A program made the translations under genes and the position numbers. 64,000 bases of DNA from Crambe crambe (taxonomy: Eukaryota; Porifera; Demospongiae; Poecilosclerida; Crambeidae): the NCBI GenBank assembly GCA_963924555.1, contig OZ004588.1, positions 1,922,001 to 1,986,000 on the forward strand, in the 5' to 3' direction. Shown piece by piece: positions 1,080 through 51,083 of this stretch. Below the pieces are notes generated by a model. That model was not told the DNA's origin and ran no database searches. It saw only the letters and a program-made list of their open reading frames with translations. Position 1 is the first letter of the stretch. Each line of letters starts with the position of its first letter.

Positions 1080-1997
1080 GTAATCATCAATCCTTCTCAC
1101 CTATGTAATAGTTTCTTTAAGATCCATTTGATCCTATAAGAGGTATGCATATGTGGTAAAATGATGTGGCAGCAAGCAACCCTTACTTGGTTATCACATG
1201 TGATTTCCTTTTAATGTGGTCTTTTAGAGCATTCACCTTCTCCCCCTTCTCATACATACATACTTACGTAGAAATGTAAAGCTTGTTATTAACTTTTTCA
1301 GAAACACTCTATACTGTTACTCACAAATCACTATGCAATTTGATACAGATTCAGAAGTACTGCAGCAATCCACATCACCATCCAGCCATGCATCTCTTCC
1401 AACTTGTCCTGCAATGCACACTTCACAAGGTTAGCTAGCTAGTTTTAATTTTTTTAAAAGCAAAAGAAATGGATCAAAATTAGCTATAGCTCTCTGGCCT
1501 AGTCACAACTTGAATAATGAAATCTGTGAGAGCGTCCTACATTACGTCACTCTTGTCTAGCTACATCTATAAATGAAAGGCTGGGATAACATTACTATAA
1601 TCAGGTCATGATCATTAGTACTTCATGGTCTTCTGTCATTTAATTCTACAGTGTCTTGCCCTCCTCCAAACATGACTGACTTCCGTGTTTCCCCCTACAA
1701 GACTCAAATAATATGAACTTAACCACAGAAATCGGAGCAAAGTACCTTGAATTTGGAACATTCCTCCTGGAAGACCAGACTGGTGCACAAATCAGTGCCT
1801 TTGAGGTGGAACTCTGTAGGAAAAAGCATCAACTATCGTGTGTTTCAAGAATGGCTACATGGGAAGGGAAAGCAAGATTCTGTGCTGGAAGATATTGGAC
1901 TAAATGAACTTGCTAAATCTATAAGAGGTGTTAAACTATAGAATTATAATTCTATGTGAGATTTATCTGCTATTCATAAGTTACCCAAGTGTCATTT

Positions 1998-21184: not shown

Positions 21185-21770
21185 ATGGGGAACAAGACGA
21201 ATAAACAGAAGCGTGGGCCCGAGCCCGAGCCAAACTCTTTTCCTTCGAAGTCCGCAGGGAGCGATCTTTCTTCAGATTCCAACCTCCTAACCTGTGAAGT
21301 AAGCCAAAAAAAGACACACAAAGCTGCCTCCTCCCCTCCCCCTCCTGTAAACATTGACATTGGACCTTCCAGGCCAAATAAGGAAAGTGAGCCTTCCCCT
21401 GATGAGTTCTTTGATCTTCCAGACCTTCCTAGCATAGATGCAGGGAGTAAAAGTTTGTCGAGTGGACCAGCATTTAAGACTGAACCGAAGTCAGATCAAT
21501 CTAAGTCTGCAGGGAGTGATCTTCCTTCAGATTCCAGTCCCCTATACATCCCTGAAGCTGCCTCCTCCCCTCCTCATCCTTTGAACATTGATAAATCATC
21601 TGAACTTCCCATGTCAAATAAGGGGAGTGAGCCTCCCTCTGATCATCCAGATCCTCCTCTGGACACTGGGAGTAAGAGCAGACCAGCATTTAAGACTGAG
21701 TCAAGTCCTCCAAAGAAAATATCACGGCAGGAGAGGCGACGAGCAGAAAGGGCGAAACGCAAGTTCAAAG
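21185..21770 (+). CDS. ROCO gene exon 1: disordered N-terminal region
   Basis: Encodes residues 1-195, very rich in Ser, Pro, Asp and Lys with no globular domain. It contains two imperfect repeats of about 70-80 residues. Each begins near KSAGSDL, passes through AASSPP and NID, and ends near GSKS..PAFKTE. The exon finishes with a basic stretch (RQERRRAERAKRKFK) that could be a nuclear-localisation or membrane-binding segment. The donor is AAAG|GTATCT, in phase with exon 2. The protein begins MGNK; Gly at position 2 raises N-myristoylation as a possibility, but this is speculative. A non-ATG frame extends a few codons upstream. That exon 1 belongs to the same transcript rests on phase match and position only. 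Confidence 0.65.
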
Positions 21771-24700
21771 GTATCTAATTACATACTCATACCTGTGACT
21801 TGTCCATAGGAGTACAGAGGGATTGTAATGGCTGTGGTTTATTACTGCTGGAGGGTGTGTCTATGGGTATGAAGTATACATGTGTCTGACCTCCCATGCA
21901 AATTCAAGACAGTTTTGCTAACATGATGCAGCCCAAATCATCAACTTGTCTCACCTTTGCCCCAAAACTAACTTTGCTAAATCGATGGAGTTAGAGGAAA
22001 TGATAAGGTCTTCTTTGTAGCATAAACAGCAGCAAAAGTGCAAACCAATTTAAGTGCTACAATTTTTTATGCCAAATACACCAATATGGACATATCTGTT
22101 AAATTATAGTAAGCCACCACCTATTGCAACCTCTCTATAGGATCTTAGGGTACAGAAATATCATACTGTATATCCGGAAAATATTGGCAGTCATCTTGCT
22201 CAGACATGGATGACTGATGACTCCCCTAGTCATTCCTGGTTGAGTTATAATGACTCCACGTAATCTTTATGGGAGACATTGTATTACTGTCTGCCATTTC
22301 CACACAAGCATTTCAATAGCTGGCTCCTCTTTTACTCTGGTCAAGACAAATACCCTCTACATGTTCTCCCAGTACAACACACAAACTGAAAGCAATCACA
22401 AAAATGCCTTAAGTGGTAGGTAGTGATAGGACTGGTAGGGTGTGACTTCCTTCATGCACTGTGTGATCACCTGCATAAGTGGGGATAAGGTGCCCCCAAA
22501 CTTGTGTGCTGCATTATGGATTGTGATAATTAGCATGGTTAGGGGGCACTGCAATGCACCATCGTCTGGCTGGTAGGTAGGGGAGGGCCTCAACCCCACC
22601 CCTGGATCAAGGGATCCAGCCATGTACTTATTACAAGATGCCACCATGTTGGTATATTGGCGAAGGGTGTGTCTTTGAGTATGAAGTGTCTGCTATTTCA
22701 TAAACCTCATGCAAATACAAGTCAACTCTGACTTCTTTTTAGTGTTAAAACATAATCTAACATACCAGCAACAAGACTCCTAAAGGCAAACTAGTACATT
22801 TCCCCTATACCATGTACACCAATATGGACAAGTCCAACATTATAGAAAACCACACCTATTGCAACCTCTCTATAGGAACTGAGAGGACTGAAATATCATA
22901 CTGTATATATTGCCTGGAATTAATAGGCTCCTGCAGATTATGCTCAAATTTATACACAAGATTCGATTCTCAGATTCTCACTCTAGCCTATTATTCTTTC
23001 AATTGTACCCATTATTCCCAAAGACTCTCTTATACATAGCTATGGCAACAGGGCTGGATTTAGATTATTAAATAGATGGAGTTGCATGACTAGGACTAGG
23101 GCCACACACTGGACCATAGGGGAGGCATAATTATTTGGAGAACCATGTATGTTGGCTTCACTGATAGTTTGCCACATTTTGAGCTTTTAAAGTTTGTGCA
23201 TAAAATTGAATAATCCGAGTAGAGTAGTCTCCTATACCATAGATACATTAATTTTGTGTATGGTGTTACATTCCTGTGGGTTGTTATAAACTAATGGTTT
23301 GTAACCTCAATACATAATCAAACCATGATAATAACATTGAACTGTATGACTATACCAACTATCCCTAATAATGTCTGCATGTAGCAGTTATTTTTGCTGG
23401 CTTCTTCAAGCTTCTTCTTCATGTGAGTACCTGTATCACGGTATATTTTTCACTCCCGAACATCAATCTCGTTCAGCTTCTTGCCCAGGGTATGACAATT
23501 CCACCACCTCTAAATGGCACATGCTTTGTGTGCTGTGTGGTCAGTCATATGCTAGCATTTGTGTAGGTAAGGGATGAAACACCAAAATTGTGAAATCTTT
23601 GAAGTGATACATGCATGGTCACAGGTGTGGAAATCAGTTTTTATGTACTAAGTTATAAAATGTGTGTCCTTGAAAGTGCAAGTCAAAGTACAGTGCAATA
23701 TGGATGTGTCATGTATACATAGACTGTTTCTTACCACTTTGATAATTATTATGAAGTATTATTATTGTCAAAGTAGAGGTATGGTCAAAATTACTGTGCA
23801 CTGTTTTAGGGGGGTTGGGGGGGTGGGGCAACCACCCCTGGCTACAGCCCCAAACATGTGTGGAAAGTCTAAATAGAACTGGTTAATACCCTTTGTGGAT
23901 ATCACCATTTTATCCACCATAATCTCCACTGTGGAGTATGTTGAAGTGTGTTAGGTATGCCAAATGAAACAGCTGTGGGTCCCTTTCCTGTCTATTATAG
24001 CAGCTACTGAGTCAGTTTAGGGAGTCTAAATGTGTGGACTGGATTTTCACCTGCTGAGCAATATGAGTTGATCATATTGATATTTTTTCACTGAGTTGTG
24101 GTTAATATGGGTACATCCCTGTTAATTAGTGTGTCATTGATATTTTGTTTGTAGCTCCTCCACTCAGCTTAAGAAATGTTGTTGCAGTCCTAAACAAACT
24201 TTCGTGGAGCCGTGTTGGTGAAATACTGACAATCCCCCAGACTAAGTTAAATGCTATCAGAGACGAGTGTGATACGGATGAGGAAAGACTTGTAGCCATT
24301 GTTAGGTATTGGTTACTAAATGATGTGAATGCATCCTGGAGGAGACTTATATATGAGCTTGACTGTGACCATTCAGATATAGCAGACAGGATACGGAAGT
24401 ATGCAGAGAAACTAACAGGTTAGTGAGAGCTTCAAACATATTGACATATGTACATGAATAGGTTGCATGTGCAGTTAAAACATTGCTGCTGTTCTGTTCC
24501 ACAGGACTCAGTTGTATTATCTCTAATCTCCATGACGTTTTACATAATTACATAATTATATCTGCTGAGTCAGCTATATCATTGTAACTACTTGACTGCT
24601 GCACATGCTGAGACCCATGCCCAGTTGTTAAGAGTAGAGACTCAAAGTCTGTAGTACATGTAACAAAGTTTAATTTTTTGCTTGTCAATTTCATTGCACT

Positions 24701-27700
24701 ATTACATTCACTCTGACCCTTGAAGTTAATGAGTTATGTATGTAACTCTTTACTGGTATAAAGTAGAGTCTTATAGTAGCCACCATTAGAACCAACATGT
24801 ATATAATCAGCTCTCTGCTGATGTCTGAAATCAGTCTGGAATCAACAAAGTTATACTGTAGTTCCAGAAATTTCCAAGTTGAAATATTTCATATTTTTTA
24901 ATTTTGGAAACATTATATACATCATCCAAAAATTTTCAACAATGAATTGTTATTGCATCAGATGTGCGTGAATTAGAGTTCGACTAGTTACTGCATGTAT
25001 GTATGTAATGGCAGAGTCCGTGGCTGAGTCACAATGTGAGATGGATTCCTGCATCAGAGGCTATCATAAATACAGAGCAATATGGACAGCAGCTATTGGA
25101 GAGTCTCTTTGTTGTATTAGGGGAACCTACTAATACAATAGATCAATACACTGTTGCTGTAATTAGAAGTGGACTAGTTGTTGGACATTTGCCTAAGAAG
25201 ATTTCAAGAGTTTGCTCACTTTTTTTGAGGAGAGGAGGTACCATATATTGTATAGTCACCAACACCAGGAGATATTCCACAGACCTCCCTCAAGGTGGAT
25301 TAGAGATCCCCTGTACTTTGCATTTTGAAGGGATCAATTCTTTGAGAAGACGCTTAAAAAAATGCATGCCCAATCTCAATTCATAATCAGTACTTAAATC
25401 ATTGTTTTCATCTGCTAAAATTATATTATAAAAGTTACTACCGTACAGCGGTTTTTAAAAAAATATTTCGTTACGTAAAGAATTACGTAAAGAATTACGG
25501 TAGTCTTTTATTCGGTATGGTACGATTATTTTAGCGCATGTACAACAATATCTGCGGACTTCGCTTCACAGCTGCTTTTTCACTGGCTTGCATACTATTC
25601 TTTGCCTTCATTTCTTCAGGTATAGCCCTCTTCGCAATCGTGGCGACTTCTTAAGTGATGGAATCTAGCTAGCTAAGAAGAAAGTGGACCAGAAGGTTAT
25701 GTAAGTTACATATATTGCATGCTGTAGTTGAATGTACGAACGTCTACATGTGGCTAAACGGTGGCTTTATATTGGAAATAGAAAAATTTTCGATAGACTG
25801 ATTACTGAAATTACCGAAATTTTATTCCCACCAAGATTATCCCGCTGCAAGGTACACATTAAGTACATCAATCAATCACCGTTCACATCCACTTCTTCTA
25901 TCTCTGAATCTTGCACACCAAGTGCTTTATTGTCAACATCAAGTGCTTGACATATTCCAGCTTCGTTCACTATGAATGACAGATTATCAGCAATGTGCTG
26001 AACTGTCTTGACAAGCCATTCGGCACCAAGTTCTTTCATAGCTGGTAAACATAGGTCAGCAGGTTCCAATCTTGATTCAACTGCTCTGCTATTTGAATAC
26101 CAGTCTTGAAATTTTCGCCGAAGAAAATCCTTTACAGGCTTATTAACAGAGATGTCCACTGGCTGTAATTAATCTGTGGTATTAGCAGGCAACAAACAAA
26201 CATGAATCGAATTCTCTTCAAGAATAGCATTAACACATGGAGTGATTTGACCTTTAAAATTATCCATAATCACAAGGGCAGACTTGTCTTCCCCCAAATT
26301 GTCTCTTTGCTTTTCAACATATGGAATGATTATGGCTTTGATGTATTGAAACATCGTTTCTTCATTTGACCAATGTTTGGGTGAATGTGTAATATCCCAG
26401 TCACTCAGAAATTTGAAATGGGGGTGTTGAATGGGGATGACAACAGTTTGTCTTGACAGTGGAAGTGACATCATTTAGAAATTCAAATGTGAAAAATTGG
26501 CAACACTAAATTTGTTCTTTGTTGTGGTGGCTTTTTAATTGGACAAATTTCATCCACACAAGAAGTGAATTTGCCCATGGTCTGTAGCCACCAAACTCTT
26601 CTAACTTGAACTTGTCATATGCCATCACAATACCTCGAGCAGCAGCAACAACAATACATGCAGATACAACACCTCCAGCTTCTCTCAGTTTCAGCAAATA
26701 TGCTTGCACAACCATTGTCATAGGGTGGAATGTCCCCCGCTTAGAATGACCCGGGGGTCATTTTACCCTAGGGTGAAGTGACCTGGGGTCACTCTAACCT
26801 AGGCTGGAATGACCCCCCTGGGTCACTCAGCCCTAGGGTATATTGACCCCTCTAGGATGTAGTGACCCCCTGGGTCACTTTGCCCTTTGGTATAATGACC
26901 TCTCCCTCCCCGTCTCTACATAGGATGTGGAATTAGACAATCAAATCAATTACTTTGATGAACATCAAAACCACTTGATACTTTTTTTTTCTTCCATGCT
27001 GCTGCTGGTGCTGTGACACATTGCTTATGAAATCACTGAGTCTTGGCATGAGCTGCAACTGATAATCAGTTACAAAAATCTCAAAGGTAATTGCTGCCAA
27101 ACTTGAGCTTTTTTCTGGTTTTTCTGCTGTGGAAATGATGTCAGTGCCGATTTTCTAACAGTTGAAAAGATGCTTCCGAAACTTGTGTAATATATGCAAC
27201 AGAGCTGCCATTACCCTGAATTTTTGTACATTGACGAAACATATATCCAGTGGAGTAGGAATAGGAAATTTATCTGGGGGAGGGGGGCAGGGACAATAAT
27301 AAGTTAATCACAGTAATAGCAACAAAATTCAATCCTTCTGTCATTAAATTGCATTAGCAAGCAGCAGTGAAATTGCTGGCATCACACTGCAATGACATGT
27401 AATTGCTTGGTGCTTGGTCTTACTTTCAATATACTGTTCATATTTGGGGGGGGCAGTGCCTCTCCATCTATAGTATTGGGGGGCAGTGGCCTTCCTGCCC
27501 CCCCCTCTCCCACCATCCTACTCCACTGTCTGATATCATAAATATAGTCTCGCGGGCCAATCCTTTACCAAAATACACTGATATCAACGGAAACTGTTGA
27601 TATTAAATTAGCCAGGGGCTGCTAAAAAAACTGTAAAGAAATATTGTTCTGTGATCATGAAGTGCCGAATACTTATTAGAGCATGCGCAACTCACATGTA

Positions 27701-30700
27701 CACTTTACTTATGTGGGGGTCACTTGACCCTGAGGGGGGTCATTTAACCTTAGATTAGAGTGACCTCCGGGTCACTACACCCTAGGGTAGAATGACTGGG
27801 GGTCACTATACCCTCCAACACCGTATCTAAATAGTCCACCAGCAAAAGTGGCCTACCACGCTTTCTTTCAGGAAGCTCATCCACTCATTATTATCTGTTT
27901 TCCGTTTCTCTCTCACACTTTCAAGGTAGTCCTTGATCGAGATGGTACTACTGTTGATTTTCACCCTCAACTTTCAAGAGAAATGTGCAGCAGCTGCTGA
28001 AACTCCATGCTGACTGCATATCTGCCCATATCAGCACAATCCTTAGGACTATATCTGAATTAATAGAATTGTCATCTTTTTCCTAAGCTAGCTTAGCTAC
28101 CTACGTAAGTATATACTTCATATATGGACCACGTTTTTTCTGTTTCTTAGCTTCACCCATCACTTTGTCCACTTCCTTATTAGCGAGCGCTACTGCCCTC
28201 AAGGTCATAATGTTGGATAAAGATCCACTGGGGCTTGGAAGTCCATCCTTAGCCTTGAAATACTTCCGTAAAGACATGTCTTGAGTATGTCAGAGCAATG
28301 TGTTATCTATATTTCCATAATTTAAATTTTCATATAAATATAATTTCTGGTAAGTAATTTTATTCAGACAATTTAATTTCGGAATACTTTCAACTTCCAA
28401 AAATATTTTAGTTTTGAATTCTTCTGGAACTACAGTAACTAGTATCAATACTCTAAGTGCTGAGTAGATGTTTTCAGAGCTATCTAGATCTTGGGGTTAG
28501 TAGGTGAATGCACTGCACATACAGAAAGAGAGCAAAGAGCATTATAGAAATGCAACAGTCACTAAATTCAGGACAACAAAGAGGTTCTATGTAACTGAAG
28601 TTATTCTGTAATGTATGGAAATGAGTTGTCTCACATAGCCAGCCTCTTGATTACAACACTGAGATCACTAGCATATGTTAGGAAAGGCTATCGTAGAGGT
28701 TTTGTCCATAGGACCAGAAGGGGTGTGATTGAGTGAATTAGACTCTTGCTCTCTAATACAATTTCTTTCTTTTTTCTTGGCTAGCAATAATCATGCAAAA
28801 TGTTAAATTTTAATAATAAGGTCAGTCAGTCCTATTGAAGAGAACTGCAAGAAATGTGAACAAACTACGTATAGTAGTAAGAGACTTGCTGTATTCTATA
28901 TTCTGGGGGAAAGTTTAGTATTATTTTGGACAACATCTAGGGGATGAAATTTCCCCTACGCCCCCCCCCCCCCCCCCCCCCCCCTTATGGTTAGTAAGGG
29001 ACACGAATTAGGTAGTTTGAGGTTTCCATGCTATGGTTAACAGTGACTTCTAAATGTTTGACCTCGTAACTTCCCCTCCAAGTCGAAAATCCTCTTATTT
29101 GTATGCTATGGTACATTATGAAAGAGCCAACTTTGGAAAAGTTGGACCATCCACAGCTACTTTAATTAGGTATTGTGTCTCTGAGAGTTTGAGCTGAGCA
29201 TTTGCATGTGATGATTATTTTACATATACACCATAGAATATGTGGTTCATCATTGGAAGACTGTCAATTCAGCAGATTAGATCCACCCTTACATGCTCTT
29301 ACCTGTACAGAAACTATTATGTGTGTCTATAATTGATTTTGTATTTAAAATCATTGAGTGGGAAATGGGAGTGGTTATGGGAGGAGTATTTTAGTTCCTC
29401 CTCAAAGAAGAATCACATGTTTTCATTTTTTCTAGATTCACCTACTGAGCATACAAAGTCACAAAAATAGCATACAATATGAGTGCATAATTTGTTTACT
29501 GTGCAATGAAGACATGTGAACTTGACGAAACCCATTTCTTACATGTTAGTGATGCAATTCTGCAATCAAGTGAATGGCTACACAAGACATGGAAGTGATG
29601 CTTTTAGCTAAGTAGAACCCTCACCTCCTAAACAGCCTAATTGATCCGTTGATAGCATAAACTTCCCCTCCCCTCCCACATTGATTATTAATTGTATTAT
29701 CCTCACACACAAACATCCCAGCGCCTCACTCTCTATATGGAACCCTCTGCTTGACTAGTACTGTAAATTCTGTGGGTGTGTCTTATCTGAAGTGTTTGTG
29801 TCCTCCCCAGACCCCAGCTTCACCTCTCACAGTTTGCTGGATGCTCTGGATACTGTGGGGGACAGTCACTTGAATTATGTATTTGAGATACCAGGGCCTA
29901 TGTGGAGTGAGATGAAGTCACGCGAAGAGAAGATAAAGTACTACATGGACACTCATCCAAACACTGGATGGAATCACTTGGCTGGGACTCTTCTCTACTT
30001 GGAACAACAGACAGCTCTTAAGAGAGTGAAGGGGAATGTTACAGCTGATAAAGGTAGGTGTGTACATACTAAGTGAGGCAAGGGTGAATATAGTCATGTG
30101 ATTAGTCAACAGTGGATACTCTTATGAATAAATGACTCTCCAAGTTCAGGACTATAAATATGTTTTTCTCACTAGAACACACTCCACCATGTATCCACCA
30201 CTACCAGAGTGTCTACACTCCAAAATACAATTTTTTAAGTCAACCTGATTTTGTTAGGAGTTTTTTTGTGTTTTTTTCTATTTTACACTTAAGTCAAATT
30301 ATGCACTCCTTGTTGAGTGTACATATGGCTAGAGGGTGTGAACCAGGATAGATAAGGTTGTGCATCAGTGTGTGTGTGTGTTGGGGGGGGGGGGGGGGGG
30401 TAACAGCTGAAAGTTTATGGAAGGCATTATTTCATTATTAATAATATAGAAATGTGCAACACAAGTCTTTTTATGTCAAAGCAATTCCCACTATATACAG
30501 TACCTGTCATTCATCTCTTGATGTTAACACTAAGTGCATGCATACACCTCATATTGTCTTTAGAGCATAAACTATAGTAGACTGAAGTAATACATGCTCA
30601 TACTATTTCCATTTGTTCCTGTTACTTGTTGAATGGACTTGTTTTTGTTGCTCAGCTCATGTTTTATTCTCTATGTTCTCTCCCACAGACCCCTCCCTCA

Positions 30701-33700
30701 CCCTCACTAATCTCACTCAGCTGCTGGAGGATGTGAGGCATTTGTTTTATGTGTCTGATTATCTACACATCCCCCTCTCAGTGCGTGTTAGTATAGACAC
30801 ACAACAGTCCAGTGAGTCTGAACGTAGGAAGGCTTATTGGGAGTGGTACCTGAACAACCACCCATGCCCTTCGTGGCGTCACATTGCTAATGCTCTGTAT
30901 ATGAGTAGGGAGCATGGAGTGCTAGAAGTGTTGAAGAGTCGCTACCTTAAAGGTGAGTCTGGTTCTCTGTGATGATTACTGGAATGGTTGATTTGCATGT
31001 GTCCTGTCCCCAACTATGTAAAAACATCATCCTATATGCCACTGTTATTAATTAAATTTCTTCTCTCATAATCGATTGTTGTTGTTATTGTTGTTGTTGT
31101 TGTTGTTGTGATTGTTGTTATTTTTGTTTGTTTTAATTCATTGGGTAGATGATATGAATATCATATATTAGTCATCTGCTATGGAGTACTGGCAGGAAGT
31201 TACATATAAAAATACAATACTCTTTTTGCAGAAATATTATTTTCTGCTGGTTAAGCCACTCTGTTTTTAGGAAAGAAGAATGAAGGAACCATTTGTAATA
31301 GAAAATGGTAGTTCTTATGAAGAGATGCAGTCTTGCTGATATAGCTACTTACATTCAAGAATGAGCCTTCAACAAGAAAACAGTGTTCTAGCATAGCTGT
31401 ACTACTCCACTGACAGTTGATAGAATTCTTTCTCTGCTACCTATCACATGGTTTTATAGGCAGAGCTGTAACAAAATAAGACAAGTACAGCTTGGACATG
31501 AAGCAGGTTGCCGAAATTTGTCAGCTGATTCAACCTGTGCCTAATTGCTTCAGCCAGTTAGCAGATCGAGGTTATAGTGGTTTGACTACTTCAGCTTCAA
31601 GCTTGGATGAGCAGTGCTTCTACATAGCAGAGGATCATCATGGACTCTAACTGAGCTACATTAAACATCTTTACATACTAAGTGCTATATATATTGTGAG
31701 ACGATTGGTCATTTTCCGAGGGCCATATTTGTGTGGATTAACAAATCTACATGAGGTCTTTCCATATGCAAGGTAACTTACCATGACAGTAGCAATAAAT
31801 TTGAAGGCTCTCAATATACTGCTCTGAAAGCCTTGCAAATTGGCGGAAAACAGCTATTGGGCCTCTGAATACCTTCTCATCAAACTATGGAGATTAACTC
31901 ATTAACAGCATTACATAACCACATACCTCAATATCTACAACACATTACAAGCATGCATGACACTTTTACAAGCTATTTGAAATAGGATTACAAGAAGATA
32001 CAAAGACAACAAGATGTCAGTCTAGGTGAATCTGGTTCTCTGATGATTACTGGAATTGTTGATTTGCATGTGAGCCTCCCCAAGGAAGTGTTATTAAAGA
32101 AAGTTTAAATTGGTTCTCTAATAATCGATTGTCGTTATTATTGTTGTTGTTATTATTGTTATTGTGATTGTTATTGTTAATATTTGTTTTGATTCATGGG
32201 GTAAGTTGTAATAATGTCATATATTTGACATCTGCTATGGCTAGAATACTGGCAGGAAGTTGAAGAACTTTTGCTGTTTTGCTACAACAAAAATTAATTA
32301 CCAATTTCCTATGGCCATAAACCAAGGATTTGCTAAATTCATGAATGATTTGCTAAATTCATAAATTCATGAAGAATTCTGAGGCCGATCTATTTATAAT
32401 CCAGCTAAGCCTAAAATCTTGATAGCTTTACTATTTAACGATAGGCAGCTCCGATACTATCTGCTGCTAGGCTAGCAAAGCGTAGTAACACTCGAATTCA
32501 GTGGCAGCTCAATGCCTCTTCTCTTTGTTAGGCCTGGTTGGTCATGTGCTCGTGCATGGTTGTAGCACCAATTCGTCATGGTGATGTATGTATTACCTTG
32601 GACTCACGGATTTCTATGGTCTTGCGATATTTTCGAGTACCAGGCCCTCCACAATCATAATTGAAAAAGAGGGCCGGGGGACAAGGCTAATCATGATAAA
32701 TTTTTTGATTTTGATTTATTTTCAGGGTCATTAAAATTAATCACATGACATTTATTTACCTTGTACAAAATGGAGTAAAAGGTAATTATAAGTATAAGTT
32801 GTAACAAAGAAAATAAACAAATTAAAAGCATGAATTATTATTTAACTAAAATTTCCCAATTTATGGTAGCTACTTACATTCAAGAATGAGCCTTCAACAA
32901 GAGAGCAATGTTCTAGCATAGCTGTACTACTCCACTGACTGTTAAAGATCGATACTCTGCATATCTAATTCATGTTTTTATATCCACATCAACTGAAACT
33001 TTGTTAGCTGATTCCACAGTCTTCTGTGCCTAATTGTTTCAGCCAGTTAACAAACATTGTGGTTATGTTTGACTACTTCAGCTTCAAAGTTGGATGAGCA
33101 GTGCTAGTAGGATGCTATAACTGAGCTACAAGTAAAGCTATTCTGAATAAAGAAGGAAAGTTAGGGATGGCCGTGTGTGGTTCAAAAAGTTCAGCAACAA
33201 GAGAGTGAACTTCATAGGATAGGATAAAATATAAAGGGAGTGAAGTAGGAATAGTTAGCTCATAGTTTGGTAATATTGTTGGTTACTTGACTGAAGTTCA
33301 CTCTCTTAACAGCATTACATAACCACATACCTCAACTACAAGCGCATATGCATGACACTTTTGTAAATTTACAAGCTATTTTACAAGGACTCCAAGATGT
33401 CAGTTTGTGGATCAATGGCATCAACCAGGCCCAAATTTTTGTGAGATAAAATTAGTAAAAAAAGTTTTATGCACTAATTTTCATGAATTCCATGCCCCAC
33501 AAAATTTCGCACTATACGATAATGGAACTTCAGCAGAATTTGCTATAAGAATCAAAGTAGTTTGAACAGAGTCACTTAATATGGAATCCGAGAAAGGCAC
33601 TTTTTCCGCGAAAACTGAATAACTTTTTATATGTTCCACCTGATCGGCTGGATAGTGTGACTACTACCTTTAGGCAAAGTTACCTTCACATATCACATAA

Positions 33701-36700
33701 ATATGATTTGCATTAATCATACCCACCAGACTTCCAGCAAGCAAGTAAATAACCTCTGCCTTCAAGCAACACTGAGTTTTGCTTGATCGACCACATACCC
33801 AGGGTGTAAGTTATGTATGAGCTCACTTTACTTACCTGAGTAGCCAATCACTTAACGAGTGATGAAAGAGTGATGTAGGCTGGAGTACATGACTATAAAA
33901 AGTACGGAAACAAGGTGTACTGCATTTGCTCTGCTAACTGTCACAGAATTGACAAACCCTACATCGCTGCATGGACTGCATTTGTCACTGTGCTCTGCTA
34001 ACTGTCATAAAATTGACATACGCAGTCTGTGCCATCCCTAGCTACTTATCGTACTCTCTCATACTTTACTTAAAAAAAATTTTCAGTATTTTTTAAAATT
34101 CCTGTCAAATTTAAAAATACTAATGAGTCGATATGGTGGGAAAGCACTACATTCATAATAGCATATCTCACCCGAACTATGATGATATGCATGTGTGGCA
34201 GTTGAGGGTAGAAATCAAGCTTCATTCACGCTTTCTACTTTTGAAAAAAAGTTTGAAAGGCAGAAAATTTTATTGTAAAGCATTAGTCATGACAAAAGTA
34301 AACTTTGACTAAAACGTTGGGGTTGTCCCCAGAAAATAAAAGTAGAGCAGTAAATTGTGTCACTGCGCATGCATGTAATTGATCGCGCACAAGATCGTCA
34401 GTCAGTACAGTGCAGTAACCTCGTCCCCAGGCTCTAATATTACAGCTATAGGATAGCTCTCATGTACCAGTTCTTTCTCAGTGTGCGGATGGTGTGTTTG
34501 TTTAGCTGGGACAACCCCACCTAGTACTGAACAAGGAACAGCAGCAAGTTCGTTGGTGAATAGGATGCCTGTATGGAGCAATTCAATCATTGCAAAACAG
34601 AAAGTGGATGATTTTAGAGTGAGACTTCAAACCAAGCTCTAAAGCTATCTATAGTCTCACGAGGGTCTTGGTTCAGCTAGCTAGTGAACGGAGAGAATCC
34701 AGCACAACAGCTATGAGGTAGGCTTTTAAGCTTATGGACTTGGAATAATGAACTAAGCTATTTTCACTACCTCTTCAATACCGTTTTGCAACAACTGAAT
34801 TCAATTGGACACATTGAAGGTTTTCCATCTACAATGAACTTGCTATTACCTCATAGAAAAGAATCACCTCTTCCTTGCATTGATGTATTTGAGCATTTAG
34901 TTGGGCAATAATTTATAAGGTTTGTACGATAAAGCACTAGCTATCGAAATATCAAAATCTCAAACTGCATCTTGGAATCAATTAGCTCTTTGTGGAATCA
35001 GTGCACATAACATTGTGTGATATTATTGTGTGTAAGTGGTTGAACTTTCAATGCTACTACAGTTTGATAAGTAAATGTTTGAGTGGTGTTAGTTTGATAG
35101 AAAGGCACTTTAGGAGTTATCAGGTTTTCTATTTTGGTAACCATTGACTGGCACTGAAGTCAGCAGCTCCAGCTGAAGTGGTACTAGGTAGCTAGCCTGT
35201 GAATGGCTAGCAAACTATTGATTGCTGATTGAATGCATAGCCATTTCTTGACCTTATGTAATAAGGAACTGACTACTACTAACATGATTAGCACTTACTT
35301 TCCTAGGTCCAATGCACTTGGGAGCTAGTGAGCATAAAGAAAGAAGAAAGGAGATTGTTTTACTTATCATTCCACTATTATATCTGGAATATAGTAGAAT
35401 GTCCTTACATGTGCGTGCAAAAAATTAATATGTAGCTAATATCCAAGAAAAAAATAAATTTTCAATTGCGGGATAGTATGCAATGATGTTCTATGTCTGT
35501 TGTGTGTGTGACACATACCAAGTAGAAAAAAATTAAATTTGAGTGGGTGTATTAGTAATATAATTTATACATGCACAGTGATACTCATCTGTTTTTTTGT
35601 TTCATTGACTACCTGTAGGTTCCGCTGAGTCACGTCGACTGTATAACGAAGCAATGAAGCAGGGACGCGTAAAGTCCCAGATCAACAAAGCCCTCCTTTA
35701 TGGGGCTCCAGGAACCGGAAAATCAAGTTCGATCGACCTTTTCGTTGGTAACCCTCCGAGACAAGCCAGAATAAGCACTCCTTTAGCTGCTCGTCCGATT
35801 ACAATGATCCAAATGAGAGTCACCAAGAAGGAGTGGAAAAAACTTCATCCAAAAGAACGGAAAGAAATTCTAGCAAGGGCCATATATGCTCAGCTTCATG
35901 CCAACGATACAAATTCAGGTGAAGATTGTGAGGCATCAGCTAATTCTGGTGAGAGTTCTGATTCTGATGAAATATTAACGACTCCTGAGCATAAAGAAGC
36001 TCGTAGTAAAGAGGATAAGTCGACAAGTGACGTACATCCACGAGTACACCCAGCAACTCCTTCCAGTCCAACATCTGCTAGCAAACCAAAGAAAGGTTCT
36101 CATTCAAAGGAAAAGATTTCACTGCCATCCCTTGGCACACATGATGAACTAACAAAATTATTGGATGAAATTTCCAAATCAGATGATCTTGAAGCTTTAC
36201 CTGTCTTCCGGAAGGTTAAGTTGATCGACTCTGGTGGACAGCCGCAATTTCATGAGGTGTTACCTGTATTTATTCGTCGTATGTCCCTCTACATATTTGT
36301 CTTCAAGCTGTCAGAAGAACTCGCCACCAAGCCCATGGTAGAATATTTTGGGGAGGACGGGAAACGTGTGGGGACACCTTACCGATCAGCTCAGTCCAAT
36401 GAGCAGCTATTGAAGCACTGCCTTCGCACTTTGCATACCCACAGATCGTCTCCCGATACTAAAGGTGAGTGCTCCAAAATTATGATCGTAGGGACCCACA
36501 GGGACGAAGAACACCTGTGCACGACCGAGACACGAGAGGAGAAGAACAAGAAGTTAGAAGAGCTCTTGCTTCCGATGTTCCAAGAGGAAGTCATCTATTA
36601 CAACCTGGCAGAAAATGAGGTGATCTTTCCAGTCAATACCAAAAATCCTGAAGAGCTTGATAAGGATACAGCTAGAGATATCCAAAGTGTAGTCCTAACA

Positions 36701-38155
36701 AAGTGTATGCCTGATCCCATTGATGTGCCCCTTCAGTATTTCTCTTTGGAAATTATCCTTGAAGAAGTCAGCCTTTCTTTAGACAGAGGGGTATTGAGCA
36801 AAGAAGAATGCCTTAGAGCAGCAGATAAGCTTTTCTTTAATGAGCATACACTGGATGCAGCTCTCCAGTTCCTAGATGAAATTTCATCAGTCTTTTATTT
36901 CCCCGAGGTTCTGGATGGTGTTGTATTCACTAACCCTCAAGTCCTTTTGGATAAGGTAACCGAGTTGGTGGAGATTACCTATTGCTTGAGAGAAAAGGTT
37001 GGTGGAAAAGCACTTCGTGCACTCTCTGGAGGCTGGAAGAAGTTTAAAGATCATGGCATTGTTAGCTTAGAGCTTCTGCAAGAGAAAGAGTTTAATAAGC
37101 ATTATGTGCCTGATATCTTTACTCCTGTTGATCTGGTCAAGCTCTTTAAAAAGTTGCTCATCATAGCTGACTTTAGTGCTTCAGAGTACATTATGCCTGC
37201 CCTTCTTCCTGTTCTTGAAACTGAGAAGGTTAATAAATATCGCTTGTCTAACGATTCACTTGTAGCTCCTTTTGCTCTGGACTTCCCACTCGGAGGTCCT
37301 CGTCTTGGTACTTACTGCAGTCTTACTTGCTTTCTTGTCTCTAATGACAATCAGTTTCCTTGTCCTTGGAAAATAGTGTTGCTTCCTCGTTCCAGCACTC
37401 CGGCTTGCCTGAATCGAAACTGCACCCAATTCACGGTGCCAGGTTTCCCTGGCTCTGTCACTCTGATTGACACATTTACACATTTTGAAATACATATGTA
37501 CACTGCTGAAGAAGTGTGTAGCAAGATGTGTTCCTTTGTCTCTCAAGCAATTTTTGCGGGTCTGAAGAAAGCAACAGTCATTCTTGGCTACAACAACTCC
37601 ATCCCATCAAAAGCACTTCTTTGTCCGTGTGATGTTAGTAACCCTCATATTGCCACTTTTAGAGACAGAGTCTGGACCTGCAGTCGAGACTGCAATGTGT
37701 TTGGAGTGCTTACTTCTAGACAATCACTATGGTGTGAACAAGAACATTATTCCTCTACAAATGGTATGTCCATACATACATAAAAACATATACATACATT
37801 CATATATACATACATACATACATACATAGCTACATTAATTCTATCTTCCTTGAATTTGATTGTTTTGCATGCGCATGCAGCTCCATTGGACTTGAAGACT
37901 GTTCGTACTGCTTTGTGGGATGCCAGGTGCAAGTGGTATGACATTGGAGTGGAACTCGACTTGGACACAGCAACTCTTGACTCGATCAACACTACTCACT
38001 GTAAACAAGTGGAGGACTGTTTTCGAGAGATTCTTTCTAAATGGCTTGAGGTGGCAACACCTTGTCCCTCGTGGAAGGCACTGGTTAAAGCCCTGAGGTC
38101 TCCTGCTGTGGACTTTCCTCAAGTAGCCTCTAAGATTGAAAGCAAGTACATTTGA
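21185..38155 (+). CDS. Multi-Death-domain ROCO-family GTPase (spliced, 6 exons)
   Basis: Exons are 21185-21770, 24155-24418, 29811-30053, 30689-30952, 35619-37763 and 37881-38155. All introns are GT-AG and all junctions are phase 1. The lengths sum to 3,777 nt, giving 1,258 residues plus a stop. Domain order is a disordered Ser/Pro/Asp-rich N-terminus (1-195), Death domains (about 196-283, 284-364, 365-452), Roc GTPase (about 465-800), COR (about 815-1065) and a C-terminal Death domain (1168-1258). Roc motifs are the P-loop GAPGTGKSS (481-489), DSGGQ (656-660) and THRD (745-748). ROCO proteins bind and hydrolyse GTP and dimerise through COR; Death domains recruit partners in apoptosis or innate immunity. 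That role is inferred for this protein. The ATG at 21185 has a good context (GACATGG). Exact 5' end, UTRs and any extra or alternative exons are unknown. MFHAS1-like and DAPK-like ROCO proteins are the nearest families I recognise, but no kinase or leucine-rich repeats are visible. Confidence 0.85.
21771..24154 (+). other. ROCO intron 1
   Basis: Non-coding. It contains a diverged internal duplication: about 21,840-22,200 and 22,660-22,930 share a stretch beginning GGGTGTGTCT and another containing TATTGCAACCTCTCTATAGG. The segment 22,390-22,650 is moderately GC-rich with one short minus-strand frame that I do not recognise. No further Death exon was recognised. Confidence 0.6.
24155..24418 (+). 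CDS. ROCO gene exon 2: Death domain 1
   Basis: An 88-codon exon with acceptor GTTTGTAG and donor ACAG|GTTAGT, symmetric phase 1-1. The product has the six-helix Death pattern: WSRVGEIL, a central IRDECDTDEERL segment, VRYWLLN, then SWRRLIYEL and a last helix IADRIRKYAEKL. The Trp in helix 5 (SWRRL) is the family hallmark. The symmetric phase would let the exon be duplicated or skipped without changing frame. Confidence 0.85.
25036..25386 (+). CDS. HIRAN-like domain ORF inside pogo-like element
   Basis: An open frame of 116 codons with no ATG at the 5' end. The listed start is GTG, and the frame stays open to a TAA near 25007, so a start or an upstream exon may be missing. The product contains GEPTNTIDQYTVAVI, GLVVGHLPKKIS, GTIYCIVTNTRRYS and DLPQGGLEIPC. 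The EP.N..D..AVAV...G..VGH.P pattern fits HIRAN domains, which in SWI/SNF-type proteins bind DNA 3' ends. The intact frame contrasts with the broken transposase in the same element. It could be transposon cargo or a fragment of a larger protein. Confidence 0.6.
   Translation: MRWIPASEAIINTEQYGQQLLESLFVVLGEPTNTIDQYTVAVIRSGLVVGHLPKKISRVCSLFLRRGGTIYCIVTNTRRYSTDLPQGGLEIPCTLHFEGINSLRRRLKKCMPNLNS
26722..27816. mobile_element. Nested element with GACCC/GGGTC terminal repeats
   Basis: It interrupts the transposase pseudogene between DYLDT and VVQAYLLKLREAGG. Ends are roughly inverted: AGGGTGGAATGTCCCCC on the left and GGGGGTCACTATACCCT on the right. About 170 bp at the left end and 100 bp at the right consist of reiterated units of about 35 bp built on TGACCCNNGGGTCA. 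No coding potential was seen. Non-autonomous; superfamily unclear. Boundaries are good to a few bases and the target duplication is not clear. Confidence 0.6.
27248..27528. mobile_element. Small inverted-repeat element inside the nested element
   Basis: Starts CAGTGGAGTAGGA and ends TCCTACTCCACTG, perfect 13-bp inverted ends. The interior is G-rich on the left and C-rich on the right, with a repeated GGGGGGCAGTG motif. CAG/CTG ends suggest a short non-autonomous DNA element. Flanking bases give no clear target duplication. Confidence 0.55.
29811..30053 (+). CDS. ROCO gene exon 3: Death domain 2
   Basis: An 81-codon exon with acceptor CCTCCCCAG and donor AAAG|GTAGGT, phase 1-1. It starts DPSFTSHSLLDAL, resembling the start of the next exon (DPSLTLTNLTQLL), which suggests the two came from one another. 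Helix 5 reads NTGWNHLAGTLLYL, keeping the Death-domain Trp. The segment before it (SREEKIKYYMDTHP) matches the helix 4 region of the neighbouring Death exons. Confidence 0.8.
30689..30952 (+). CDS. ROCO gene exon 4: Death domain 3
   Basis: An 88-codon exon with acceptor TCTCCCACAG and donor AAAG|GTGAGT, phase 1-1. The Death signature is seen in YWEWYLNNHPCPSWRHIANA; the same PCPSW motif recurs in the C-terminal Death exon. Sequence just after the donor is duplicated further down the same intron (near 32,021), but no second Death exon was found there. Confidence 0.85.
30953..35618 (+). other. ROCO intron 4 with tandem duplication
   Basis: A long intron without recognisable exons. A segment starting just after the exon 4 donor (about 30,955-32,020) is repeated at about 32,021-33,405. 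Both copies carry GAATCTGGTTCTCT-like sequence, a TTG/ATT triplet run, a TCATATAT..CATCTGCTATGG motif, then TTACATTCAAGAATGAGCC and TTCTAGCATAGCTGTACTAC. The rest, to 35,618, is AT-rich and unremarkable; a 62-codon minus-strand frame near 34,402-34,590 has no support as a gene. Confidence 0.6.
35619..37763 (+). CDS. ROCO gene exon 5: Roc GTPase and COR domains
   Basis: A single 2,145-nt exon of 715 codons, acceptor CTACCTGTAG, donor AATG|GTATGT. It opens GSAESRRLYNEA before the first Met at 35654, so that Met is internal. Roc motifs: G1 GAPGTGKSS, G3 DSGGQPQFHE (the DxGGQ form typical of Roc rather than Ras) and G4 IVGTHRDEE. Between G1 and G3 lie about 165 residues, well above the usual Roc spacing; about 100 of them are Ser/Glu/Lys/Pro-rich and probably disordered. 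The COR part begins near VPLQYFSLEIILEEV and contains AALQFLDEISSVFYFPEV. The last 150 or so residues are Cys-rich and did not match a domain I can name. Confidence 0.9.
37881..38155 (+). CDS. ROCO gene exon 6: C-terminal Death domain and stop
   Basis: Acceptor GCGCATGCAG, then 91 codons and TGA at 38153-38155. It reads LKTVRTALWDARCKWYDIG, followed by a Thr/Asp-rich middle, PCPSWKALVKALRS and a final helix VASKIESKYI. This is a clear Death domain closing the protein. The preceding intron is only 117 bp and contains a run of ACAT repeats. Confidence 0.88.
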
Positions 38156-48049: not shown

Positions 48050-49006
48050 TCACTTATCTTGGTCCTTAACCAGTGTTCCGGAGATCTTGGCAAGATGCTG
48101 CCTTGGGGTCTTGATATACAGTTGATAGGCTGAACTTTTCCAGCGACCCAGCATCTTGATTGTCGCATCACCTATCCCTTGACGGGCTGCTGTTGTAGCT
48201 GCACCACTCCTGAAGCTGTGTCCAGAGTATGGAGTCGGATCGATACCAACTTCAGTTAGGGCTTGCCGGATTCTCTCAACAAAACGGCTTCTAGTGAGGG
48301 GCTTACCATCCTGGAAGCGGAAGAGGGGGCCGGGACCACTGCCTCTGCGAATCAAGTATGCCAGCATCGCTGACACTGGACACAGCGCCTTGTGAGTTCT
48401 TCCAACGTAGACGTTTACTCCCTGCCGAAAAGGATCAGTTTTTGAAGCCTTTATTCGGATCTGCAGAGACTGTGGGTTGTCAGGGGTGATTATGACGATG
48501 TCGCTGAAGGATAAGTGAACTCCTTTGTCATAGGCCTGGTCATGGGGGATACACACTTCCCCAGAACGGAGGAAGCCAAAGAAACACAGCAGGGCCGCTG
48601 CCCATAGCATTCTTTTATTTAGATCCAAGTTCTTCTCCCATGCTCCCTTGATGGCCATTAGTAATTCCGGGGTAATGGGGAGCCTTTGAGTTCTGGGCCC
48701 CACCTCCTCTGCTTGTTGCCTTTTTATTCCCTTAAGCACTTGCTCCAGCTTTGCCATTTTACTAATGTTAGGGTCCCCTAAGCCCCCGACTAAGTGTAAT
48801 TGTCTAACCCCAGATAAATAGCATTTAATGGATGATGCTCGCAATTTCTGATCAGCTAGGAATGCGGCAAATTGACATAATATAGTCTCAGATGTTGGGG
48901 TAGGGGGGAGGTTGAATCTCTGGCAGAAGGTTAGGTATCGTTTTTGTGCTGAGTTATAGGCTTTCCGGGTGGACAAGGCTATGCCATTTCGAAAATAGTG
49001 CTCCAC
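48050..49006 (-). CDS. Tyrosine recombinase of Ngaro element
   Basis: A 318-codon frame overlapping the RT-RNase H frame by 28 bp in another phase. Its first listed codon is GTG, so translation may need frameshifting, reinitiation or splicing. The catalytic set is visible: Arg147 (FLRSGEV), Lys near 187-189 (IKASKTD), His263 and Arg266 (SGHSFRSGA), Trp289 in the second His position (GRWKSSAY), and Tyr297 (QLYIK) as the probable nucleophile. It integrates circular cDNA by strand exchange, replacing the integrase of LTR elements. Confidence 0.9.
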   Translation of the reverse strand: MEHYFRNGIALSTRKAYNSAQKRYLTFCQRFNLPPTPTSETILCQFAAFLADQKLRASSIKCYLSGVRQLHLVGGLGDPNISKMAKLEQVLKGIKRQQAEEVGPRTQRLPITPELLMAIKGAWEKNLDLNKRMLWAAALLCFFGFLRSGEVCIPHDQAYDKGVHLSFSDIVIITPDNPQSLQIRIKASKTDPFRQGVNVYVGRTHKALCPVSAMLAYLIRRGSGPGPLFRFQDGKPLTRSRFVERIRQALTEVGIDPTPYSGHSFRSGAATTAARQGIGDATIKMLGRWKSSAYQLYIKTPRQHLAKISGTLVKDQDK

Positions 49007-50742
49007 AGACTTGTCCAGTTCCCTGACGTCCAGTCTGGTTTTGATATTAAGAGTAAGTCTAGCAGGGGGGGTGGGATCGGGGAGGCCGACTTGTTTGCCT
49101 GTGGGATAAGAGAGTGAAATAAGTCTACCCTGTCTCTTGAGAGAGCATCTGCTGCCACATTGTTAATCCCTGGGATGTGAGTGGCTGTGAGAAGGAATTG
49201 AAACTTTGCGGTGATGAAGGCCAAGCACCTCATCAAGTGCATTACTTCTTTATCCTTGCTTGAGTTCTGGTTCACAATAGCCACTACTGCTGCATTGTCA
49301 CATTGGACCAGGACTGTTTTCCCCGCCCAATCTTTGCCCCAAGTGGCGGCAGCTATCACTACGGGGATCAATTCCTTTATGGTGATATGCTGGTCTGCTA
49401 TGGGGCTTGCCCACTTGAGTTGGAACCAAACTGACTCCGAATAGGCACCACACCCCCAACTGCCTGACGCATCTGAGGTAACGATCACTTCTGGGGATGC
49501 CGGAATGGTGGCTCTCATCATAGAGATTCCATTCCATGATGCTGCAAATTGAAACCACCACTCAATGTCAGACCGAGCCTCAATGTTCAGACGGATGAAG
49601 TGATCTAGGTGCTTGGTTGCTGTGGATAAATCAATGAGTCTGCGAAGAAATACTCTACCTGACCTGACTGCTTTGCACGCATGTGATAGGGAACCTATCA
49701 GTGATAAAAGCTCCCTCTTTCTGCAAGCTTTTCTCCCTCTCCATGAAGCTAATAGGGATTGAAGATTGGCTAGCTTCTCCTTAGGAAGGCGGATTTCCAG
49801 TGTCACAGAATCCAATTCCAGGCCTAGGAAGTGGATACAGGTAAGGGGGCCCGTACATTTCTCTGTTTCCACTGGAAGGCCCGCCTCCTCACAAGTTTTC
49901 ATCATTGCTGCCATGCTGGCTTGGCATTCGTCACAGCTGGGCCTTCCCACTGTGATGAAGTCATCCAGATAGTAGAACACTATGGTGGCCCCGTTTCTTC
50001 TCATAATCCAATGGAGGGCCTCTGCTAGTGCTGAGAACAGCAGGGGGGCTGAGCGAAGGCCGAAAGGGAGGGTTTTATCAACGAACACTTTCCCTTCCCA
50101 TTGCATACCTAGTAGGAGGCGGTCTGGTGGGAAGACCGGCACATTTCTGTAAGCTTGCCGGATGTCAAGCTTTGCCATCTTGGACCCTTTCCCCAGCCGT
50201 AAGACAGCTGCTATCACCTCGTCTGTGGAAGTGTAACTAATGCTGCTGATATCCTTTGCAATACCGTCATTAACACTGTGGCCCTCTGGGGAAGATAAGT
50301 CCAGGATCAGTCGCCATTTGTTTGGCTTGTTCTTCTTTGGAATTACTCCAAATGGACTACAGTGTACTCCCAATACTTGTGCTTCCTCAATTGAGCCCAC
50401 TTCCTCTATGCGGCCTTGCCTTAGCTCGTCCCTGATGTAGTCTGACACCACCCCTGGGTGACTGCGTGTGGACAGCATATTGCTATTCTTTGCTTTTAAC
50501 CCAACTGAGCCATGTTGGAAGCCAATCTTGAACCCTTGTCTTATGCCCTTTATGACGAGGCGAGCAAATATTTTATCTGGATGGGAGGCTAGCTGCCTTT
50601 CCCAATACTCTGGCTGCAGTGGTGTGGTGATAGTGCTCAGGCTTTCTGGGAGGTTGGCTACTCCTGTTATACTTTGGCATTGGTCTATGGCTGCCAATTT
50701 GCTGCCGAATGGGTGCCCACTTTGCGGTCTGCCTGGAAACAA
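48979..50742 (-). CDS. Reverse transcriptase-RNase H polyprotein (Ngaro type)
   Basis: A 587-codon frame whose first listed codon is TTG, not ATG. A strong pyrimidine tract and TTTCCAG acceptor end at about 50733, so the reading frame probably begins by splicing from an upstream exon; no clear donor was found. RT motifs include KLDIRQAYR (Asp193), LPFGLRSAP and YYLDDF (257-262, catalytic Asp pair). RNase H follows with SDASGSWGCGAY (Asp424), KEL (Glu457), CDNAAVVAIV (Asp482) and VAADALSR (Asp532). All expected catalytic residues are present. The frame ends 28 bp inside the downstream recombinase frame. Confidence 0.9.
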   Translation of the reverse strand: MFPGRPQSGHPFGSKLAAIDQCQSITGVANLPESLSTITTPLQPEYWERQLASHPDKIFARLVIKGIRQGFKIGFQHGSVGLKAKNSNMLSTRSHPGVVSDYIRDELRQGRIEEVGSIEEAQVLGVHCSPFGVIPKKNKPNKWRLILDLSSPEGHSVNDGIAKDISSISYTSTDEVIAAVLRLGKGSKMAKLDIRQAYRNVPVFPPDRLLLGMQWEGKVFVDKTLPFGLRSAPLLFSALAEALHWIMRRNGATIVFYYLDDFITVGRPSCDECQASMAAMMKTCEEAGLPVETEKCTGPLTCIHFLGLELDSVTLEIRLPKEKLANLQSLLASWRGRKACRKRELLSLIGSLSHACKAVRSGRVFLRRLIDLSTATKHLDHFIRLNIEARSDIEWWFQFAASWNGISMMRATIPASPEVIVTSDASGSWGCGAYSESVWFQLKWASPIADQHITIKELIPVVIAAATWGKDWAGKTVLVQCDNAAVVAIVNQNSSKDKEVMHLMRCLAFITAKFQFLLTATHIPGINNVAADALSRDRVDLFHSLIPQANKSASPIPPPLLDLLLISKPDWTSGNWTSLWSTIFEMA

Positions 50743-51083
50743 GGAGACAAGAGTGAGGGTTAAAAGGAAGAGAAAGTATATGGAGAGAAAGGAGCAAAGA
50801 AAGGAGAGGTGTGGCAGAAAAGTGTGACTATTCGGCTGGGGGGAGCAGTTTATATCTACTTTGCCGCCTTTTTGTTGTTGTTGTTGCTGTGTTTTTTTGT
50901 TGTTGTTTTTGTTACTTTTTTTTTTTTTTATTATTTTTTTTTTTTATTATATATTTTTTAATATTACATATGATTATTGACCAAAATACCTAGTTCATAA
51001 TTTGTACTAATCAGATGATTATTATTTCCCCCATCACAGGGGCTGTCCTCTATAATTATATGTTAGGCTAACTGTAGACAATT
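50743..51083 (-). other. Non-coding gap between gag and RT frames
   Basis: T-rich on + (A-rich on the coding strand), with runs of T and TTG repeats around 50,870-50,955. It ends, on the coding strand, in a long pyrimidine tract and CAG at about 50733, consistent with an intron upstream of the RT exon. Confidence 0.5.

Follow-up and report, generated by a model that had tools for sequence, protein, structure and literature searches.

A ROCO gene on the forward strand of a sponge genome encodes a predicted protein with three Death domains in front of a Roc-COR GTPase and a fourth behind it. It lies at positions 21185-38155 of a 64,000-nucleotide stretch of Crambe crambe DNA (GenBank assembly GCA_963924555.1, contig OZ004588.1, positions 1,922,001 to 1,986,000), hereafter the window, and belongs to a tandem family most units of which are open. 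Across the family the Roc-COR region and the C-terminal Death domain are conserved, whereas the three N-terminal Death domains are fast-changing. The architecture, the tandem array, the reassortment of exons between units and the contrast in selection, all read from the genomic sequence, would be explained best by a germline-diversified repertoire of ROCO recognition proteins built on Death-domain surfaces, a reading that we favour, although without great assurance. An earlier note on this DNA had taken the protein for a multivalent signalling scaffold, possibly immune or apoptotic. Its Death and GTPase makeup stands, and an immune or apoptotic role is plausible for a protein of this composition, but the picture of a single scaffold is incomplete, the gene being one of a large reassorted tandem family; tandem copies with mixed, fast-changing front domains would be expected of a recognition repertoire rather than of a single scaffold.

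The gene is predicted from the sequence to consist of six exons separated by introns that are all GT-AG and in phase 1. The joined coding sequence of 3,777 nt, including the TGA codon, translates into 1,258 amino acids, in the order low-complexity N-terminus, three Death domains, Roc-COR GTPase and Death domain 4:

21185..21770, forward strand: exon 1, start codon and low-complexity N-terminus rich in S, P and D, ending in ...RQERRRAERAKRKFK; donor GT, phase 1
24155..24418, forward strand: exon 2, Death domain 1, variable class; Pfam Death above cut-off
29811..30053, forward strand: exon 3, Death domain 2, divergent and shortened, variable class; profile homology
30689..30952, forward strand: exon 4, Death domain 3, with the most variable (predicted) surface; profile homology to exon 2
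35619..37763, forward strand: exon 5, Roc-COR GTPase, 715 amino acids; G motifs and profile homology
37881..38155, forward strand: exon 6, C-terminal Death domain of type A, holding the stop codon; Pfam Death 17.2 bits, below cut-off

The exon borders recur in homologous exons from the array of related units on C11 described below. An AG acceptor is present in 40 of 40 homologues of exon 2, 39 of 40 of exon 3 and 39 of 39 of exon 4, a GT donor in 40/40, 40/40 and 38/39, respectively, and none of these 119 exons contains an in-frame stop. In the one acceptor miss (L090) the match begins at residue 8 and the AG sits further upstream, and in the one donor miss (L161) the match stops at residue 75. 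Agreement of this kind across 119 homologous exons argues that the borders in the window are more than chance. Exon 1 has no Pfam match; among the compact copies L039-L042, counterparts were detected in L040 (1e-9), L041 (6e-20) and, weakly, L042 (3e-5), E-values that are generous because the low-complexity filters were off, and none was found in the C10 copy L039 by the same comparison. The start of exon 1, ATGGGGAA, is common to the window copy and the C17 copy L040. In six relatives a single open frame of 832-874 amino acids spans exons 5 and 6 together with the 49-58 bp that separate them, although this gap may nevertheless be an intron. The assembly of six phase-compatible exons into a 1,258-residue protein, proposed in the earlier note, is borne out in its borders, phases and join.

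A genome search with exon 5 yielded 62 scored relatives of 603 candidates; the family counts given here rest on these 62, which represent a lower bound. Thirty-seven of them, 82-100% identical, are located between 1.59 and 3.85 Mb of a single chromosome, C11 (a span of 2.3 Mb), where they form an array of 37 units, 35 on the forward strand, with a median spacing of 55 kb and with 37 distinct exon 2-3-4 combinations. Searches with exons 2, 3 and 4 found these exons collinear upstream of Roc-COR in 61/62 relatives, the sole exception (C11:3722829) having exon 2 but no scored match to exon 3 or exon 4. The order table used 62/62 Roc-COR, 78/111 exon-2, 79/80 exon-3, 76/123 exon-4 and 50/150 exon-6 matches, with weak or cross-matching tail rows left out. 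Given this retention of the order, a chance assembly of unrelated exons is rejected. Sixteen of the 61 collinear relatives, on C1, C5, C8, C10, C15, C17 and C21, are compact: no more than 195-756 bp separate their exon 4 from Roc-COR. On the strength of these compact relatives we reject exons 1-4 as a separate gene and, on a genomic basis, consider it unlikely that transcripts stop between exons 4 and 5, a concern of the earlier note. The C17 copy L040 extends over 5.1 kb from the start codon to the last Death exon, its introns measuring 53-623 bp; it may be damaged, since no 5' end can be recognised in its exon 3 and the end of its exon 6 is different. The C10 copy L039 contains a stop within Roc-COR. 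At C11:3482603-3497548 the order is 2-3-4-3-4-Roc-COR, possibly representing a protein with six Death domains or a fused unit.

The family is set in a genome with a very large expansion of ROCO genes: at least 149 genome-wide matches to COR-A (PF16095) lie above the cut-off (150 scored of 339 candidates). Arrays of such matches are located at C1 8.1-9.4 Mb, C3 7.5-7.8 Mb, C5 5.7-6.3 Mb and C11 7.1-7.3 Mb, and on C8 and C9. Pfam Roc matches were discarded as a count of ROCO genes, as PF08477 also matches ordinary bacterial controls and small GTPases.

The Roc-COR assignment of exon 5 was derived from motifs and profiles. Exon 5 contains the sequences GAPGTGKSS (35702-35728), DSGG (36227-36238) and THRD (36494-36505), which we take to be the G1, G3 and THxD-type G4 motifs; all three are invariant across 19 aligned members of the 62, save P31 of G1. 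The score against Pfam Roc is 18.1 bits (cut-off 27). Two results count against the COR assignment: the window protein has no COR-A match in Pfam, and the 150 COR-A matches listed (of 339 candidates) include none of the 62 relatives. By hhalign, a profile of the 19 members aligns over 621 columns (3.3e-43) with nine ROCO frames from the same genome that were chosen from the COR-A matches above cut-off, 3/9 of which pass COR-A as single whole frames. At E <=0.1, Roc is matched by 27/32 and COR-A by 16/32 members of a wider set, which means that no fewer than 3 of the 19 family members match COR-A. One relative, located on C9, scores 34 bits for COR-A, just under the cut-off of 35.3. As a single sequence, exon 5 retrieves no Roc-COR structure from PDB; a profile that includes Pfam-confirmed relatives reaches the LRRK2 structure (8.4e-15). 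Because LRRK2 is reached only when these relatives join the profile, the window protein is filed as a divergent ROCO protein, for which GTP binding, hydrolysis and dimerisation of Roc-COR are predicted. Pfam searches of the six exon frames (E up to 10) detected neither a kinase nor a leucine-rich repeat (LRR), the place of the LRRs being occupied by the Death exons, and membership in the DAPK1, LRRK and MFHAS1 groups is accordingly rejected. A related array at C9:4.3-5.0 Mb carries exon-2-like and exon-4-like Death exons and Roc-COR regions with COR near or above the Pfam cut-off, and is a possible bridge between the window family and canonical ROCO proteins.

Identification of the Death domains is of unequal strength. 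The arrangement given in the earlier note, three before Roc-COR and one after it, holds, but only exon 2 passes the Pfam Death cut-off (23.5 bits, cut-off 22.6). Exons 3 and 4 of the window copy match no Death model in Pfam, exon 6 remains under the cut-off, and Roc and COR-A are likewise below cut-off or unmatched, so that in the Pfam search of the translation suggested in that note the Death domain of exon 2 alone exceeds its cut-off. Among homologues, Pfam Death is matched at E <=0.1 by 26/26 for exon 2, by 3/27 for exon 4 (best 8.4e-6) and by 0/34 for exon 3. Profile-profile comparisons (hhalign) link exon 3 with exon 4 (98.5%, 3e-15), exon 4 with exon 2 (97.1%, 5.6e-11) and exon 3 with exon 2 (94.6%, 6.4e-8), each E-value being that of a single comparison. 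Exon 3 counts as a Death domain solely through this profile homology. The homology of exons 3 and 4 to a Pfam-positive Death domain argues against the alternative that the Death exons are non-Death helical repeats. In PDB searches exon 2 weakly matched FADD (0.0079) and exon 4 found no Death structure; exon 6 matched mainly trimeric coiled-coil constructs (best 0.0012), which we take as chance matches, with FADD at 0.11.

Exons have been reassorted among the units of the array. Between-exon comparisons included the 28 C11 units with all four regions (exons 2, 3, 4 and Roc-COR). Mantel correlations of nucleotide distance between these regions range from -0.08 to 0.04 (p >=0.24), and those of the nonsynonymous rate (dN) from -0.10 to 0.10, with exon 3 versus exon 4 at p = 0.05. 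The within-region controls are 0.85 for exon 2, 0.71 for exon 3, 0.05 for the halves of exon 4 and 0.18 for those of Roc-COR; exon 4 cannot serve as its own control, owing either to recombination or to the scant variation of its 3' half. The lack of correlation between the exon distance matrices therefore indicates reassortment. Adjacent 88-codon blocks of Roc-COR correlate at r 0.94 down to 0.16, and the correlation drops to about 0 with distance, so that Roc-COR is recombinant along its length as well. Similarity is unrelated to array position (r -0.03 to 0.12). The window copy illustrates this mixture: the nearest unit to its exons 2-4 is at C11:2.38-2.40 Mb (100, 99 and 100% identity), whereas for its Roc-COR the identity is 98% with two other units, at 2.575 and 1.635 Mb, and 91% with that at 2.38-2.40 Mb. 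Intron 4 is 96-98% identical to the units at 2.39, 2.69 and 3.71 Mb until about 33,300 and 79-80% thereafter, and the unit at 3.59 Mb matches best (96%) over the stretch between about 34,020 and exon 5; the break at about 34,020 is common to many units and may be an insertion or deletion.

Two types of C-terminal Death exon are found in the array. Among the 30 units with downstream sequence, 10 carry type A, as does the window copy, and 20 carry type B; the C-terminal Death frame of the C1 copy L042 is type-B-like. Of seven regions tested in 28 units, the last quarter of Roc-COR is the one whose distances are associated with type (P = 0.024), and no association was found with exons 2-4 or with the other Roc-COR quarters.

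Selection differs between the front of the protein and the rest. Median pairwise ratios of nonsynonymous to synonymous substitution rates (dN/dS) are 0.24 for Roc-COR, 0.19 for type A, 0.31 for type B and 0.65, 0.78 and 1.59 for exons 2, 3 and 4, taken only from pairs with dS of 0.02-1.0 (15 pairs for type A, 92 for type B and 398-635 for the others). The Roc-COR set comprised 29 of 30 units (array 37), unit 3842176 having been dropped for a broken frame. Site models were fitted with our own program on FastTree trees of 35 sequences for each exon, and several starting points gave the same result. The likelihood-ratio test (LRT) statistic for M2a against M1a is 165 for exon 2 (omega2 5.6), 202 for exon 3 (9.1) and 293 for exon 4 (9.4), compared to 0.0 for the controls type A (n=7), type B (n=19) and Roc-COR parts 1, 2 and 4 (n=28). 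In a register taken from hhalign profile alignments the selected sites coincide, 7/10 between exons 2 and 4 (P = 0.0002), 3/5 between exons 3 and 4 (P = 0.04) and 4/5 of the exon-3 sites between exons 2 and 3 (P = 0.0004); with a single fixed shift for exon 2, the coincidence of exons 2 and 4 is 6/10 (P = 0.002). From the FADD alignment and the helices of the Death fold, these sites presumably fall in helix 2, the 2-3 loop, the start of helix 3, the 3-4 loop and the 5-6 loop. The selected residues would accordingly be at the surface, a position that we infer from sequence.

Several observations weigh against a recognition repertoire under positive selection. The program used to fit the site models is not PAML, and one control, Roc-COR part 3, gave an LRT of 12.2 (p = 0.002, 3 sites). 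The use of one tree per exon, together with the uncorrelated halves of exon 4 (r = 0.05), means that recombination may inflate the site models. In a tree-free codon bootstrap, the ratio is 1.37 for exon 4 (0.86-2.23, P = 0.09), 0.71 for exon 2 and 0.81 for exon 3, with Roc-COR at 0.27; residues 17-37 and 72-76 of exon 4 reach 2.12 (1.16-4.09), a segment chosen post hoc from the alignment. Internal stops occur in 4/62 Roc-COR relatives, two of them in the C11 array, and the profile of the window family alone reaches no Roc-COR structure in PDB. The tree-free ratios below 1 for exons 2 and 3 and the non-significant ratio of exon 4 would fit an ordinary family expansion with relaxed constraint and gene conversion, in which the N-terminal Death domains are under little selection. 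We regard this explanation as improbable, given the absence of stops in 119 exons, the splice sites that are intact in nearly all of them, and omega2 values of 5-9 at clustered, coinciding sites with five of six controls flat.

Other explanations accept the variability and assign it a different cause. Death domains usually pair homotypically, and the Death domains of each unit could bind their own kind, forming insulated homotypic channels or an allorecognition system rather than pathogen sensors. Besides this habit of pairing, the overlap of variable positions in all three N-terminal domains agrees with such self-recognition, and so does the listing of sponges among allo-incompatible animals (PMC8195603). 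Pathogen pressure, however, would produce such selection equally well, and matching within a protein would require co-variation of exons 2, 3 and 4 of a unit, which is lacking; we consider self-recognition unlikely, if the least unlikely of the alternatives. Somewhat less probable still, although a shade more so than relaxed constraint, is an arms race with microbial Death-fold decoys or Death-attacking enzymes, in which the variable faces would be escape surfaces and the family a target instead of a sensor. Variable N-terminal domains next to a conserved switch and C-terminus fit this scenario equally, but on its own it leaves the maintenance of dozens of units unexplained, and no such effector was identified, no search aimed at one having been made. 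Finally, intron 4 is 4.7 kb long in the window and the distance from exon 4 to Roc-COR is up to 12 kb elsewhere, which could suggest two genes, with exons 1-4 forming a separate Death-domain gene, or the array could be an assembly error. Either is very hard to credit: the distance shrinks to 195-756 bp in the 16 compact relatives, the order is identical in nearly all relatives, and the Crambe crambe assembly was built from HiFi and Hi-C data with a quality value (QV) of 58.1 (PMC12166358).

Under the preferred reading, a diversified recognition repertoire, the variable N-terminal Death faces would bind a copy-specific partner, either a microbial or symbiont-exposed host factor or another Death-domain protein. 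Binding would favour a GTP-dependent rearrangement or dimerisation of Roc-COR, and the type A or type B Death domain would then recruit one of two conserved adaptor or caspase pathways. Diversity would be generated by tandem duplication, by exon exchange among units via the long introns and by selection at a few surface positions. GTP switching, the partners and the immune role of the family are in this scheme predictions from sequence. More tentatively, and with less confidence than in the repertoire itself, we suggest an anticipatory form of non-bilaterian recognition, in which specificity would reside in Death-domain surfaces, exons would be exchanged over a megabase array, a GTPase would be coupled to two fixed Death outputs, and the repertoire would possibly be individual-specific and concerned with self and non-self.

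Outside the coding exons, the window contains two further features of note:

1689..1935, forward strand: broken C-terminal Death exon of type B, probably a remnant of an adjacent unit; matched by tblastn as two pieces with 69% and 52% identity
25872..26474, reverse strand: transposase remnant in intron 2, outside the gene; DDE_1 22.4 bits (cut-off 22) on 26169-26474

By itself, the segment 25872-26168 has no Pfam match. About 800 bp from the DDE_1 remnant, on the opposite strand, intron 2 contains an open frame (25009-25383, forward strand) that scores 18.7 bits for HIRAN (cut-off 24.7). A retroelement at 48053-51953 on the reverse strand, presumably DIRS-like, includes frames for an RVT_1 reverse transcriptase and a Phage_integrase tyrosine recombinase, and an adjoining frame has a CCCH zinc-finger match just below the cut-off. 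By eye, 32020-32075 in intron 4 is a near-repeat of the sequence after the exon 4 donor (30953), and short degenerate TGACCC...CTAGGG repeats are present in intron 2 at 26740-26900 and 27710-27820. Rfam and tRNA scans of the window returned no matches.

Death domains are usually regarded as conserved signalling adaptors, and in the window family they seem to be the receptor-like part. Neither this family nor a GTPase with hypervariable Death domains was seen in the titles and abstract openings listed by capped searches of open-licence literature. If the repertoire is real, sponges possess a recognition family that is combinatorial, large and mapped to a chromosome, a counterpart of the shuffled LRR-ROCO genes of brown algae, and sequencing one array in many individuals would open self/non-self recognition in sponges, and their recognition of symbionts, to testing.

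Among known proteins, the statement of the earlier note that animal ROCO proteins have at most one Death domain is valid for vertebrate ROCO proteins and fails for Trichoplax, in which Roc-COR occurs with CARD and Death domains (PMC4104024). This placozoan resembles the sponge in joining an animal Roc-COR to Death-fold domains (Death or CARD) and has at least 17 ROCO genes; judged by its description, it differs in that a repeated Death array, exon reassortment and selection are not mentioned in the partial text of that report (PMC4104024). DAPK1, of the third Roco group, shares the order of Roc-COR followed by a C-terminal Death domain and the lack of LRRs, but has an N-terminal kinase (PMC6337361), for which the window gene has no match; the introns of the compact C17 copy, at 53-623 bp, are too short to hide one. 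Within sponges, Amphimedon has 357 TRADD-N proteins, most types of which carry one to three Death-like domains (PMC8195603). These proteins, too, have expanded within a sponge lineage and combine one to three Death-like domains at the N-terminus with a variable remainder; there, however, the Death-like domains precede TRADD-N, and Roc-COR is not among the partner domains named in the available part of that report (PMC8195603). The sponge NLRD proteins also place a Death domain on a nucleotide switch and are expanded, but they are DEATH-NACHT-LRR proteins, in contrast to the Roc-COR with several Death domains of the window family (PMC12909245).

A further parallel is provided by the LRR-ROCO genes of brown algae, candidate immune receptors that have undergone exon shuffling and positive selection of their LRR exons (PMC11378527). 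In both cases an expanded ROCO family carries a variable N-terminal module encoded on single exons of the same phase, which are shuffled and selected (PMC11378527). The algae, a lineage unrelated to sponges, employ 72-bp LRR exons in phase 2 in 9-47 genes per species (PMC11378527), a number exceeded by the at least 149 COR-A matches in the sponge, whereas the Crambe family employs whole Death domains in phase 1, three of them in a fixed order, with a conserved C-terminal Death domain of two types and an array of 37 units.

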